Below, piece by piece: positions 1-3,814 of a DNA stretch of 64,000 bases. The first letter of the stretch is position 1; every line of letters starts with the position of its first letter. The notes beneath the pieces were generated by a model. It saw only the letters and a list, made by a program, of their open reading frames with translations, ran no database searches and was not told the DNA's origin. Source of the DNA: Clostridium sp. (GTDB taxonomy: Bacteria > Bacillota > Clostridia > Lachnospirales > Lachnospiraceae); the NCBI GenBank assembly GCA_023664605.1, contig JAMPFF010000001.1:1-64000 (forward strand), read 5' to 3'. The translations under genes and the position numbers were made by a program.

Positions 1-392
1 CACTGTATTCTATTATACAAAAGGATTCCAATATCCGATTTGACTTTGCCCTGCGGTTGGCAAATGAATTAGAAATTGATGTGAATGAGATATGCTCCGC
101 CAGTCCATTTTCCGGTGCCATTACTGAAGAAGAAATATATCCCACGCTCCCGGACGGGCTGCATGGCGCACTCGATGGCAGCCGTGTAAAGACATATCTG
201 AAAAACTCTTTATATCCACTGATGTATCTGTTTGGGAAAAACAGTATGCCAGATGTGGATAACCTATTGACTTCATTTTATCAGTTGGATGATGAGGCAA
301 GAAAGGAAGTTGTTGAAACGATACAGTTTAAGCTGCAATACCACAGAGATCCGGAACGGGCAGAACAAGTCAAACAGATAAAAGGATGGTAA
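1..392 (+). CDS. Xre-type transcriptional regulator, C-terminal part (5' truncated by window edge)
   Basis: The frame is open from the first bases of the window and ends at a TAA at 390-392, so the true start lies upstream. About 130 residues are visible. The first stretch (ALRLANELEIDVNEIC) looks like the last helices of a Cro/C1-type helix-turn-helix domain. After it comes a region rich in acidic and aromatic residues that resembles a ligand or oligomerisation tail. No family name can be given for that tail. A strong hairpin terminator follows directly. The AT-rich composition and the repeat next to it suggest it belongs to an accessory element. The DNA-binding role is moderately likely. 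Its target is unknown. Confidence 0.6.
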   Translation, partial: LYSIIQKDSNIRFDFALRLANELEIDVNEICSASPFSGAITEEEIYPTLPDGLHGALDGSRVKTYLKNSLYPLMYLFGKNSMPDVDNLLTSFYQLDDEARKEVVETIQFKLQYHRDPERAEQVKQIKGW

Positions 393-399
393 AAAGAAA

Positions 400-432
400 G
401 CTCCAGTGAATAGCAAAATTCTCTGGAGTTTT
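400..432 (+). terminator. Intrinsic terminator after the Xre gene
   Basis: The stem CTCCAG/CTGGAG is followed by an inner GAAT/ATTC stem around the loop AGCAAA, then TTTTCTTTTT. This is a classic factor-independent terminator for the plus-strand gene ending at 392. The same hairpin sequence recurs at 2480-2519. Confidence 0.8.
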
Positions 433-456
433 CTTTTTATGGCACCGCTTTGGCAC
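403..456. repeat. att-like direct repeat, copy 1 (hairpin plus GGCACC-N10-GGCACC)
   Basis: CCAGTGAATAGCAAAATTC is identical to 2488-2506. It is followed by a T-rich stretch and two GGCACC hexamers with starts 10 bases apart (440 and 450). The same order occurs at 2488-2540 in the same orientation. Paired short direct repeats of this kind can be arm-type integrase sites or element ends. No integrase gene is visible in the window, so the att interpretation is inference. Confidence 0.6.
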
Positions 457-523
457 CTTCATACTATATTCATTTTAAAATAGCCCTAATCAAAGCCAAT
501 AATACATTTAAAGCAAAAATGCT

Positions 524-1096
524 CTACATTACAACAGCCCCATGATCCTGTGTTGATTGATTATAAAAATACAGATAGTAAAATGGATCAAATAGCAAAA
601 ACATAGATTCTTTGCTTAAGTCTCTATACCTAAAAGAATACTCTAATTCCTTAGTATATGCCGAGACTAAATCTTTGCCATATTGAAAAAAATCATTATT
701 GTATTCCTTTAGCAAGGACAATACAATATGTAAACAGATTTTCTCATTAATATATGTTGCGGTTTCAATAAATTCATCAGAATCATTTTCCTCAATTCTA
801 ATCCAAAATGGACGCAACTTCAATAACCAAAACACGAGTAAGCCTGTATTGATTTTATATTCATTTGCATCCATTTTTTTATGATAAATGCAAAAGTATA
901 AACGTCTCATATCAATCCTAACGATGATATCTTTTAATGCTTTTACATTCACTTCAATTCTCTCAGAATCAATTTCCGTAACATTGCAAAACTCGATAAG
1001 TTGTTGCTCAATTTTTGATAGTTCTTCATCAATATATGCTTCCGAAGGCTCTGTGTATTGAAATTCCAAATTATCCCAACAAGTCTTTTCCATCAT
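524..1096 (-). CDS. Hypothetical protein, third gene of RelA/SpoT cassette
   Basis: This is a 190-residue soluble-looking protein with no family I recognise. It is acidic at the N-terminus, rich in aromatic residues and Ile/Leu, and appears alpha-helical, with no signal peptide and no convincing membrane segment. Its ATG overlaps the stop of the upstream 66-residue gene in an ATGA arrangement, so the two are probably translationally coupled. It is the last gene of a three-gene unit that starts with a RelA/SpoT synthetase-domain gene. By analogy with toxic small alarmone synthetase modules it could be an antitoxin, partner or effector, but nothing in the sequence proves that. No clear terminator lies downstream. 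Confidence 0.6.
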   Translation of the reverse strand: MMEKTCWDNLEFQYTEPSEAYIDEELSKIEQQLIEFCNVTEIDSERIEVNVKALKDIIVRIDMRRLYFCIYHKKMDANEYKINTGLLVFWLLKLRPFWIRIEENDSDEFIETATYINEKICLHIVLSLLKEYNNDFFQYGKDLVSAYTKELEYSFRYRDLSKESMFLLFDPFYYLYFYNQSTQDHGAVVM

Positions 1097-1293
1097 TTAT
1101 CACTCCCAGTTAATATTTCCTTTACCAGTTTTTTCAATTCAGGATCTTCTGAAATTTTTTTTGCTCCACGAATGCATGGTTCAAGAGTCTCTCCCCGTCT
1201 TATAGGTGCATTATTGTCACAATGTAATACGCCTGCATTACATTGTTTACGCACCATTTCAATACTCATATTAAACATCTTTTTCTCCGCCAT
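1093..1293 (-). CDS. Small Cys-containing hypothetical protein, second gene of RelA/SpoT cassette
   Basis: This 66-residue protein starts MAEKKMFNMSIEMVRKQC and contains three cysteines (around residues 18, 25 and 40). Its C-terminal half is charged and helical (SEDPELKKLVKEIL). Its ribosome binding site AAAGGAG overlaps the stop codon of the upstream RelA/SpoT gene, and its own TGA overlaps the ATG of the next gene. Translation of all three genes therefore looks coupled. The family is not recognised. Small size and position next to a synthetase-domain gene fit an antitoxin or regulatory partner, which is inference only. Confidence 0.55.
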   Translation of the reverse strand: MAEKKMFNMSIEMVRKQCNAGVLHCDNNAPIRRGETLEPCIRGAKKISEDPELKKLVKEILTGSDK

Positions 1294-1298
1294 TGTCC

Positions 1299-2360
1299 CT
1301 ACTCCTTTATTTGTAAATTATATCTTTTGCATACTTTTTCAATATCAACAAACTTTTCCAGCAGATTATATGCTTCCCGACTAATAATTATTTTTTTATT
1401 TTCTTCTATTTCAAAAAATTTATCCACATTATTTACAATCATTCCATACATCAATATCTTATCTATGGTTAACTGGATTTTCAGTGCACATATTGCTTGA
1501 ATCAACCCATCATCAAACAACATATCTACATCCCTCACTGTAATTAATCCATATTTATCCAATATAGTACTTATATCGTCATAACTGTAAAATCTTGAAC
1601 CCAGTCGAACAAACTTTATTTTGAAATATTTTTCTAAACTCTCCTTATCAATTGCACAATCTAATAACTCTTGATATATGATATTATTAATCCTCTCTGC
1701 CAAATCATCATATTTCTTTACCAAACGCCCTATCTCGTTGTCGAGTAATTCCAAGGCTCCGGAAACTAAATTAGTCTCTCTAAGCATTTCTGCAGGAATC
1801 TCTGTATTTGCCATATTACTCTTGTACTGTCTATCATGGAATACTTGAGACCAAGCATCTTGCAAAACTGTTCGTAATTGGATTTCACATTTCATTCCCT
1901 TATATTTACGTTGCTCAGTTGAGAGTTGTTCCTCTTTTAAAGATATTATATAGTGCACCGAGAGATAACCAACTTCATTTGACTTTAACAATTTAATTTT
2001 ATCGTTGCTGTTGTCTTTATCTACATTGAACATGCTTTCAATAACACGCTGAATTGGAGCTATATCTTGAGGCAAATAACAAACTATTCTAACACCAGCT
2101 AGATCTGTTATTTGGTTTCTAGGATCATTATATTTCAAAACATAACCTTGGGTTACTTCATCGTATATCTTTTTCCCACATTTATCCGTTAGGCTTGCTA
2201 ATTTTTTAGCCCTACTAGAGTGATATGCATGTAACATGGCTCTTTCTTTTAAAGCATCAAGCACTTTTGCCAACACATATTGTGCAAACTCTGAATACTT
2301 TTTTTCATTCTCTTCATACCACTTCAAAAAATTCAATGTTCTCTGTTCTATATCAACCAT
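1299..2360 (-). CDS. RelA/SpoT nucleotidyltransferase-domain protein (small alarmone synthetase or ToxSAS-like)
   Basis: The protein has 353 residues. The N-terminal half carries the synthetase motifs of the RelA/SpoT family: a basic RAKKLASLTDK segment near 60, ITDLAGVRIV at 84-93 with the metal-binding Asp, GYLSVH at 131-136, and EIQLRT followed by DAWSQVFHDRQYK at about 159-180. There is no HD hydrolase domain, no TGS and no ACT domain, so it cannot be a long Rel enzyme. The C-terminal 150 residues are helical and unassigned. The family transfers pyrophosphate from ATP to GTP/GDP, or in toxic members to ATP or tRNA. The start at 2360 was chosen over a GTG at 2381 because GGGAG sits seven bases upstream. 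A promoter at 2404-2432 drives it. Confidence 0.8.
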   Translation of the reverse strand: MVDIEQRTLNFLKWYEENEKKYSEFAQYVLAKVLDALKERAMLHAYHSSRAKKLASLTDKCGKKIYDEVTQGYVLKYNDPRNQITDLAGVRIVCYLPQDIAPIQRVIESMFNVDKDNSNDKIKLLKSNEVGYLSVHYIISLKEEQLSTEQRKYKGMKCEIQLRTVLQDAWSQVFHDRQYKSNMANTEIPAEMLRETNLVSGALELLDNEIGRLVKKYDDLAERINNIIYQELLDCAIDKESLEKYFKIKFVRLGSRFYSYDDISTILDKYGLITVRDVDMLFDDGLIQAICALKIQLTIDKILMYGMIVNNVDKFFEIEENKKIIISREAYNLLEKFVDIEKVCKRYNLQIKE

Positions 2361-2403
2361 GTTTTCTCCCTTCGAGATCACATTTAACTACTTCTTATTT
2401 TCT

Positions 2404-2432
2404 AGAATAACGGTTTTTACATGATTTTTCAA
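2404..2432 (-). promoter_or_regulatory. Sigma-A promoter of the RelA/SpoT cassette
   Basis: On the minus strand TTGAAA is followed after 17 bases by TATTCT, 44 bases upstream of the chosen start codon. It is the only good promoter-like pair seen in front of the three-gene unit. Confidence 0.65.
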
Positions 2433-2479
2433 TACTTTTTTGGGCAAAAACAAAGAATTTAACTCGTTTTTTAATGATT

Positions 2480-2540
2480 ATGAAATTCCAGTGAATAGCA
2501 AAATTCACTGGAATTTCATTTTACGGCACCGTTTTGGCAC
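2480..2540. repeat. att-like direct repeat, copy 2, with perfect 17-bp hairpin
   Basis: Positions 2480-2496 and 2503-2519 are perfect reverse complements around the loop AGCAAA. They are followed by TTTTACGGCACCGTTTTGGCACC. The core matches copy 1 at 403-456, including the two GGCACC hexamers ten bases apart. Copy 2 lies just beyond the tuf terminator, so it may mark the junction between an inserted element and the conserved chromosome. The hairpin could also stop transcription, but no gene reads into it from the plus side nearby. Confidence 0.6.
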
Positions 2541-2568
2541 CGTTCACAACATTTTTACTGTTGCAAGA

Positions 2569-2600
2569 CCAAAAGAGACTTCCAAGAAAGCTCTCGGAAG
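2569..2600 (-). terminator. Terminator of tuf
   Basis: On the minus strand CTTCCGAG and CTTGGAAG form an eight-pair stem around AGCTTT, followed by TCTCTTTT. It lies 26 bases after the tuf stop codon. Confidence 0.7.
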
Positions 2601-2626
2601 CCCCATAAAATCTAGCTTTTTATCAA

Positions 2627-3814
2627 TTACTCAATGATACTAGCCACACGACCAGACCCAACTGTCCTGCCACCCTCACGGATAGCAAACGTAAGACCCT
2701 GCTCCATAGCGATAGGATGAATCAATTCGATTGTCATCTCTACGTTATCACCAGGCATACACATCTCTGTGCCATCCGGTAAGTTGCAAACGCCTGTTAC
2801 GTCAGTTGTTCTGAAATAGAACTGCGGTCTGTAGTTGTTGAAGAAAGGAGTATGACGTCCACCTTCATCTTTTGTTAAAACGTATACCTGAGCCGTAAAT
2901 TTCTTGTGGCAGGTTACAGAACCCGGTTTTGCAAGAACCTGACCTCTTTCGATATCTGTTCTCTGAATACCACGAAGCAGAACACCGATGTTATCACCAG
3001 CCTGTGCCTCATCCAGTAACTTACGGAACATTTCAATACCTGTTACAACAGATTTCTGAGTTTCTTCCTTAACACCAACGATTTCAACGTCATCAGACAT
3101 ATGAAGTGTACCACGCTCTACTCTACCTGTAGCAACCGTACCACGACCTGTGATGGAGAATACGTCCTCGACAGGCATAAGGAAAGGCTTATCTGTATCA
3201 CGCTGCGGGTCAGGAATATAGGAATCAACTGTATCCATTAACTCCATAATCTTGTCGCCCCACTCGCCCTTAGGATCTTCCAAAGCTTTTAAAGCGGAAC
3301 CTTTGATAATCGGGCAGTCTGTAAATTCATACTCTTCCAACTGCTCTGTGATTTCCATTTCTACCAGTTCAAGTAACTCAGGGTCGTCTACCATATCGCA
3401 TTTGTTCATGAATACTACGATATAAGGCACGCCTACCTGACGGGATAATAAGATATGCTCTTTTGTCTGAGCCATAACGCCGTCAGTAGCTGCAACAACG
3501 AGGATAGCGCCATCCATCTGAGCCGCACCTGTAATCATGTTCTTTACATAGTCAGCATGTCCGGGGCAGTCAACGTGTGCATAGTGTCTCTTCTCTGTCT
3601 CATACTCAACGTGAGCTGTAGAAATTGTAATACCTCTTTCTCTTTCTTCCGGAGCTTTATCGATATTCTCGAAATCTGTAGCTGTATTACCTGCTACTCT
3701 TTCAGCAAGTACCTTTGTGATAGCAGCCGTTAAAGTAGTTTTACCATGGTCAACGTGACCGATGGTACCAATATTACAATGGGGTTTAGTTCTTTCAAAT
3801 TTAGCTTTAGCCAT
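2627..3814 (-). CDS. tuf: Translation elongation factor Tu
   Basis: This 395-residue protein has the full EF-Tu length. EF-Tu is a GTPase that brings aminoacyl-tRNA to the ribosomal A site in the cytoplasm. Visible motifs are the P-loop [11 protein letters not shown] near residue 19, the switch I/II region with [12 protein letters not shown], the guanine-specificity NKCD, and the domain 2 and 3 sequences TGRVERG and [13 protein letters not shown] at the end. The start has GGAGG nine bases upstream. It has its own promoter (3887-3915) and its own terminator, separated from fusA by a 139-bp cloverleaf-like palindrome. Only one tuf copy is in the window. Confidence 0.98.

Follow-up and report, generated by a model that had tools for sequence, protein, structure and literature searches.

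FaRel is flanked by two antitoxin genes, as one section of PMC11782079 describes, and portions of PMC8832971 and PMC10440598 present Panacea (DUF4065)/NetFlax as a single antitoxin family that occurs with many unrelated toxins, toxSAS included. The anti-phage system CmdTAC, in an excerpt of PMC11618068, consists of three coupled genes, namely those for a variable toxin, a small antitoxin and a larger common partner, while CapRel-SJ46 (PMC9712102, likewise in excerpt) is a fused toxin-antitoxin with an N-terminal SYNTH domain and a C-terminal part. Here we analyse a locus that shares features with each of these: a cassette of three genes, for a RelA/SpoT synthetase, a 66-residue protein and a 190-residue protein, in Clostridium sp. 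(Lachnospiraceae; assembly GCA_023664605.1). It lies within positions 1 to 64,000 of contig JAMPFF010000001.1, a stretch of 64 kb that begins at the first base of the 589-kb contig and is called the window throughout.

We lean towards a reading in which the cassette would be a three-part toxin-antitoxin or abortive-infection module, in which a control pair that can be reused is combined with an effector that can be exchanged. The 190-residue protein belongs to a family here named big. With a second, shorter family, small, it apparently forms a conserved, undescribed gene pair that stands next to RelA/SpoT synthetases in gut Lachnospiraceae and, more rarely, next to AbiH-like, membrane or phosphoesterase genes. 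No earlier description of such a three-gene system with a RelA/SpoT enzyme was recognised in the open-access literature, through a search far from exhaustive.

The small and big genes and their partners

A single contig scan, in which six close big proteins served as queries, identified 40 named loci, mostly from Lachnospiraceae, at least seven of which are common to the sample of family genomes described below. A synthetase stands beside big in 35 of the 40 (downstream of it in L090), and in 34 of those 35, L090 being the exception, the small gene of about 75 residues was detected by profile. This profile was built mostly from the same 34 loci; L066 and L069, which took no part in its training, matched at E values of 5.9e-25 and 6.6e-6. 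Three loci (L073, L093 and L094) had been left out of the first small alignment and were later searched or added. Clustering of 39 loci at 70% identity, with the partial L091 omitted here and from alignment A5, yielded 22 clusters, 17 of them with a synthetase. The earlier note on this DNA had named co-occurrence as a check on the cassette, and the combination of synthetase, small and big is indeed conserved in other genomes.

Three gene orders are found: synthetase-small-big, small-synthetase-big (L043, L044) and small-big-synthetase (L090), the small genes of the three named loci having been assigned by eye. Distances among the proteins are strongly correlated (synthetase-big, r 0.92 over 23 loci; synthetase-small, 0.89, and big-small, 0.91, over 22 loci), and for each pair none of 9999 permutations gave so high a value. 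All three genes are under purifying selection, as judged from low ratios of nonsynonymous to synonymous change (dN/dS) of 0.01-0.10 for the synthetase (three of four pairs computable), 0.01-0.08 for big and 0.03-0.28 for small (four pairs each), with dS above 1 in several pairs. In L069 (Sellimonas caecigallum), and also in L038, a single frame runs through the start of small and most of big, which is a natural fusion or a deletion. A C-terminal YYG in some small proteins is explained, on inspection by eye, by the start codon of the following gene, which overlaps it.

The distribution of big is patchy. As sole query, the window's 190-residue protein found matches in four of 299 family genomes, itself included. 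Two of the other three first matches (L004 and L005) have a coupled gene of 63-71 residues before big, and the synthetase of L005 is 22% identical to that of the window; the third (L006) was rejected, its neighbours looking flagellar and profile A1 not refinding it. A three-member profile placed big in 21 of 397 genomes of the family Lachnospiraceae, 14 of the matches having an adjacent synthetase of intact length, three a split, truncated or fragmentary one and four none; the last group includes L047, an apparently spurious match inside a signalling-type gene. Wider samples gave five of 391 genomes at class level, of which two belong to the family of the window, and two of 398 at phylum level, the own genome included. 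Nothing in phage records matched either the window's big or typical big; in plasmid records the window's big had no match and typical big a single distant one. This last (26% identity, E 2e-4) is in an alphaproteobacterium, on plasmid AZO_p5 of Azospirillum lipoferum (L138, 3726-4576), where a small-sized gene overlaps the start of big and no obvious effector is seen.

A profile of 39 members excluding the window's protein nonetheless matches the latter at E 5.9e-10, and by this comparison the 190-residue protein is a true member of the family; L046, its nearest sister by eye, scores only 0.015 on the same profile. That the partner proteins belong to no known family, as had been claimed, stands for the 190-residue protein: among the 17 or 40 members tested against Pfam, NCBIfam, PADLOC and PHROGs no match recurred in more than one, and the big profile had no match among PDB sequences at E values up to 10. 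From these searches the big family is apparently undescribed. For the 66-residue protein the finding is narrower, namely that Pfam, NCBIfam and PADLOC gave no antitoxin match. The isolated matches were set aside as chance, whether to PAS_GdpP (E 0.022), PELOTA, WSD and other weak Pfam entries (each in one of 17 members) or to NCBIfam and PHROG entries (each in one of 40; best E 0.0089 and 0.00043). A relation to KwaB of Kiwa was likewise rejected (PADLOC E 0.0013 in one of 17 members; probability 0.1% by profile comparison, a weak test with two KwaB-like sequences). The KwaB-like genes of L169 and L170 have a membrane-protein-like gene upstream and look Kiwa-like by eye. Nor do we claim a neutralising motif of the CapRel YXXY type, since the conserved tyrosines of big are, by eye, spaced YxxxY.

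The five of the 40 loci that lack a synthetase carry AbiH-like, multi-transmembrane (multi-TM) or metallophosphoesterase genes instead. In L073 the gene immediately before small and big is AbiH-like; its match to PF14253 (E 1e-11) is confined to the first 66 of the model's 260 positions, and it may be a short or cut AbiH. The small of L073, which lay outside the training set, matches at E 3.8e-14. AbiH, an abortive-infection protein of long standing, acts by a mechanism that is not known. L077, L082 and L085 encode a protein of 156-172 residues with 3-4 hydrophobic segments, followed by a small-sized gene whose product begins with a membrane segment; of these small-sized genes the small profile recognises only that of L085 (2.7e-6); the multi-TM set is repeated in a phylum match (L133, genome G997). 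In L092 a small-sized gene, big and a metallophosphoesterase gene stand in a row. Two class matches (L093 in G645 and L094 in G703) have big and then a two-TM protein, the two being 46% identical to each other and that of L093 matching SLATT_5 only at E 0.007. A one-TM gene lies upstream in L007. No clear partner was seen in L095 (G552), whose RES-like neighbour, named by eye, was discounted as not adjacent. The multi-TM proteins are mutually dissimilar by BLAST (best E 0.33) and were grouped by architecture. A TM segment in the small-sized gene before big is present at all four multi-TM loci and at none of 49 others, which include some near-duplicates.

These associations suggest how the module might work. 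The effector would be the RelA/SpoT synthetase; with ATP as donor, it would pyrophosphorylate a nucleotide, giving an alarmone, or tRNA ends, and growth would stop. The 66- and 190-residue proteins would be its control pair, with big as the common inhibitor or sensor core and small as the adaptor through which big is coupled to one effector or another. Together they would keep the enzyme silent in resting cells until a trigger, perhaps a phage product or the loss of a labile partner, freed it. In other genomes the same pair would control other effectors, and the effector would thus be exchangeable. We infer the toxicity, the inhibition, the roles of the partners, the trigger and any present-day mobility. 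For export by a secretion system, of the kind treated in part of PMC12691689, no sign was found in the sequences.

More tentatively, small and big may form the core of an undescribed modular defence family, big being sensor or inhibitor and small a plug-in adaptor that follows the effector (a membrane one where the effector is multi-TM), while effectors of RelA/SpoT, AbiH-like, membrane and phosphoesterase type would be swapped and the synthetase of the window would have been recruited separately. An AbiH-like gene that takes the position of a RelA/SpoT enzyme next to the same two partners would give both proteins a common, testable logic. Neighbourhood analysis of big could lead to further effectors, and the membrane-anchored small offers a way to test physically which protein binds which. 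It is very improbable that small and big alone are a two-gene toxin-antitoxin pair to which synthetases and other genes are accessory. The variety of gene orders would suit such a pair, as would L046 and the Azospirillum plasmid, where a small-sized gene and big stand without visible effector, but the third gene is a synthetase in 35 of the 40 loci and another effector-like gene in the remaining five, and the TM segment appears in the small-sized gene only beside multi-TM partners.

The synthetase and the 66-residue protein of the window

The window's synthetase matches PF04607 (RelA_SpoT) at E 1.8e-18, its SYNTH domain occupying approximately residues 56-220. Residues R57, K59, K67, D93, R98, Y139, H143, E166 and Q168 are invariant across 24 aligned synthetases, and comparison by eye with R64/K66/S70/K74/R95/E145/Q147 of FaRel2, as listed in a section of PMC11782079, indicates that the ATP-binding/catalytic set is present. 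Among proteins of solved structure the closest are GTP pyrophosphokinases, YwaC and YjbM among them (E 5e-10). The earlier note had allowed for a housekeeping RelP/RelQ orthologue, which by the NCBI cut-off the enzyme is not: it scores 49.4 bits on the NCBIfam equivalog GTPPhKinYjbM, whose cut-off is 320. Its matches to PADLOC PDC-S33 (E 2.2e-14) and PHROG 9640 (E 7.1e-44) end at residues 214 and 255, respectively. The C-terminal portion of about 130 residues has no significant library match, residues 226-360 giving only weak PHROGs matches (E 0.015 and worse) and none in Pfam.

Intact active-site residues are also a feature of non-toxic synthetases, and the locus might accordingly be a stress-signalling operon in which the enzyme is a regulated maker of (p)ppGpp, with small and big as activators or allosteric sensors rather than antitoxins. 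The relationship to YwaC and YjbM, the strong purifying selection and the stand-alone chromosomal genes that are the enzyme's nearest relatives in the family would all agree with this. We nevertheless consider it rather unlikely, since big, and small where recognisable, also occurs with AbiH-like, membrane and phosphoesterase genes, a pattern that a shared control pair fits better, and since only 21 of the 397 family genomes have big.

Synthetase matches at E <=1e-12 are present in 87 of the 397 family genomes, and 29 loci (L140-L168) were fetched out of 98 match rows, own hits included. These relatives are 30-41% identical to the window's enzyme over the SYNTH part, the first sixteen have 329-418 residues, and the C-terminal part of the window's enzyme falls outside nearly all the alignments. 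Among the 24 of the 29 loci that were printed no recognisable partner gene was seen. L141 and L144 hold stand-alone synthetases of the window's type (366-371 residues), that of L141 preceding a gene which by eye resembles peptide release factor 3. There are also matches in 14 phage and 37 plasmid records, and the five records viewed (one of a Vibrio phage, one of a Bacteroides plasmid that also has phage genes and three of other plasmids) carry single relatives. In a tree of 49 rows, from which Lysinibacillus L098 was left out, 25 cassette synthetases form one clade (100/99).

Several results weigh against the module as we read it. In the same tree the window's enzyme groups with 19 stand-alone and four mobile synthetases, and big was found within about 1.5 kb on either side of none of the 29 window-type synthetases. 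The 66-residue protein scores at background level on the small profile, with no detectable homology; a resemblance by eye between NNAPIRRGETLE and GNTSPIRYGTME is not evidence. No other fetched locus has the window's combination of a 360-residue-type synthetase, a 66-residue protein and big, and at L046 and on the Azospirillum plasmid a small-sized gene and big do without an effector. Finally, big had no match in phage records or in viral contigs, the latter being searched with alignment A4 and the Azospirillum protein. The doubt raised earlier, whether the two small genes are conserved beside the synthetase, thus has a divided answer: the triad recurs elsewhere, whereas the 29 fetched synthetases of the window's type lack big nearby and the 66-residue protein is not a recognisable small.

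Much of this could be accommodated by chance capture, in which a stand-alone, CapRel-like synthetase, regulated through its own C-terminal part, came to be co-transcribed with big and an unrelated 66-residue protein, only the Lachnospiraceae triads being true modules. In its favour are the missing homology of the 66-residue protein, the side of the tree on which the enzyme lies, the relatives without big, their single occurrence in the phage and plasmid records viewed and the C-terminal part that aligns with hardly any of them. We hold it to be improbable: the three genes are tightly coupled and follow the order that prevails among the triads, the big of the window truly belongs to its family, and the approximately unbiased (AU) test does not reject a grouping of the window's enzyme with the cassette clade (p 0.28). 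That p value also means that the tree suggests, and does not prove, a separate recruitment of the synthetase from the stand-alone lineage. Returning to the three-part module, the window carries, by these comparisons, a version that has diverged and has another kind of synthetase, and that was inserted where a mobile element has its site.

Insertion of the cassette downstream of tuf

The cassette sits just downstream of tuf (Table 1), between two direct repeats of 55-56 bases that are 89% identical and about 2085 bases apart. The parts 402-437/2487-2522 and 430-457/2514-2541 are both 89% identical as pairs, and both repeats open with a strong hairpin (z -7.3 and -10.4). The 19-mer CCAGTGAATAGCAAAATTC has two copies in the window at <=3 mismatches (mean of 0.03 in shuffles) and two in the 3.6-Mb genome at <=2 mismatches, both at these repeats, while GGCACC-n5-GGCACC occurs at 441-457 and 2525-2541 (0.12 in shuffles). 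The att-like repeats of the earlier note, with 19 identical bases and paired GGCACC, are thus confirmed and are rare in shuffled sequence.

In G787, a genome of the same genus, window positions 1-457 (85.5%) and 2498-3403 (85.8%) are contiguous, with one 45-bp repeat copy common to both. Since G787 has this natural empty site with a single repeat copy, the cassette is a precise insertion. At 31.1%, the G+C content of positions 458-2486 is below that of the window (44%) and of every equal-size sliding window over the remainder of the 64 kb (minimum 33.7%, mean 44.8%). The patchy family distribution and the low G+C also count in favour of the module, a three-gene unit that this gut bacterium acquired horizontally. 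Carriage on a mobile unit, as first suggested, is upheld as far as repeats and empty site go, but only three plausible genes lie between the repeats and no recombinase is among them.

The tight coupling of the three genes is evident in AAAGGAG, a ribosome-site-like sequence overlapping the synthetase stop TAG, and in the ATGA overlap of the 66-residue stop and 190-residue start. ATG 2360 is the likelier start of the synthetase than GTG 2381, with GGGAG just 5' of it. The single promoter that had also been proposed has a candidate in the right place, but promoter-like sites in 300-2700 on both strands (18) are little above shuffles (11.4, sd 3.3), which leaves that proposal tentative.

Table 1. 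Features at the left end of the window
Feature	Position	Strand	Remarks
3' part of helix-turn-helix (HTH) regulator gene, cut by contig start, end of integrative mobilizable element	3..392	+	similarity to G787 L122
Left direct repeat	402..457		hairpin + GGCACCGCTTTGGCACC; repeat, shuffle and hairpin tests
190-residue gene, big partner, undescribed family	524..1096	-	family profile match
66-residue gene, in position of small partner	1093..1293	-	open reading frame
RelA/SpoT synthetase	1299..2381	-	360 residues from GTG 2381; 353 from ATG 2360
Candidate cassette promoter (weak)	2404..2432	-	9/12 matches; upstream of synthetase
Right direct repeat	2487..2541		hairpin + GGCACCGTTTTGGCACC; repeat, shuffle and hairpin tests
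Terminator-like hairpin just downstream of tuf	2575..2604	-	hairpin search
tuf (EF-Tu), chromosomal neighbour	2627..3814	-	named by eye from translation

An integrative mobilizable element occupies the same site in G787, to the left of the empty site, with an HTH gene at its end. This gene is complete there (L122, which matches window 1-457 at 85.5%) and encodes 160 residues with an HTH domain; the cut piece in the window has no Pfam match. The element encodes a tyrosine integrase (PF00589, E 1.3e-22), a Mob_Pre relaxase (5.1e-19), an AAA protein (3.1e-27) and an AbiEii type IV toxin (3.1e-27), and the presence of this last at the same tuf site counts in favour of the module. Because the HTH gene and the repeat close an element with integrase and relaxase, the repeats resemble a signature that marks the ends of such elements, and the cassette would lie between two such ends. 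It may be either self-mobile or cargo left by tandem insertion, and an integrative mobilizable element would have reached the site along with the unit or in tandem to it.

To judge from related genomes, the 3' side of tuf is a variable, insertion-prone site in the genus. A tuf 3' query had matches in 16 of the 21 genus genomes searched, and in nine of 11 fetched tuf regions similarity to the window stops at 2571-2627, that is at the tuf end or the hairpin. Fragments of the tuf 3' end are also found elsewhere, for example three within a 12-kb stretch of G795, separated by other cargo, and the tuf 3' end seems to be a recurrent insertion point building arrays. The three in G795:C4 (L137 2515, 5121, 9266) bound separate cargo that includes HATPase_c_4 and HNH genes. 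The window's own genome has further fragments at two places in G000:C23 and at G000:C51:312-421, perhaps the ends of other elements. Three big loci of the family sample adjoin tuf: those of the window, G181 (L036) and G221 (L044).

Comparison with described systems

The cassette resembles the toxSAS systems (FaRel, FaRel2, PhRel, CapRel) in pairing a SYNTH enzyme with intact ATP-site residues and co-operonic small partners. It differs in that, by Pfam, PADLOC and PDB sequence, the partners are not small alarmone hydrolase, Panacea/PAD1 or pseudo-zinc-finger proteins, a comparison in which a shared fold could be missed; no known toxSAS antitoxin family was found, by sequence only, in the 66-residue protein, the 190-residue protein or the sets of 17 and 40 big proteins. 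With CapRel-SJ46 it shares a SYNTH domain at the N terminus followed by a C-terminal part, as well as phage-borne relatives, but the C-terminal part is not recognisable by sequence as a pseudo-zinc finger and there are two extra genes here. PADLOC PDC-S33 and PHROG 9640 match the window's synthetase, but these matches end before the C-terminal part, and the two libraries assign no function to either entry.

The likeness to Panacea/NetFlax lies in a conserved antitoxin-type family beside unrelated partners; unlike Panacea, big has no DUF4065 match, and here the pair includes a second small protein. Among the NetFlax nodes, D27 is a toxSAS antitoxin from Clostridium hylemonae. As in CmdTAC, there are three coupled genes, with a variable effector and a small and a larger common partner. 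However, big has no SecB match (17 big proteins, Pfam, E up to 0.05), and toxicity of the present system is putative. Although by sequence the partners correspond to the definition of neither, the module would work like a Panacea-toxSAS system or a toxin-antitoxin-chaperone system.

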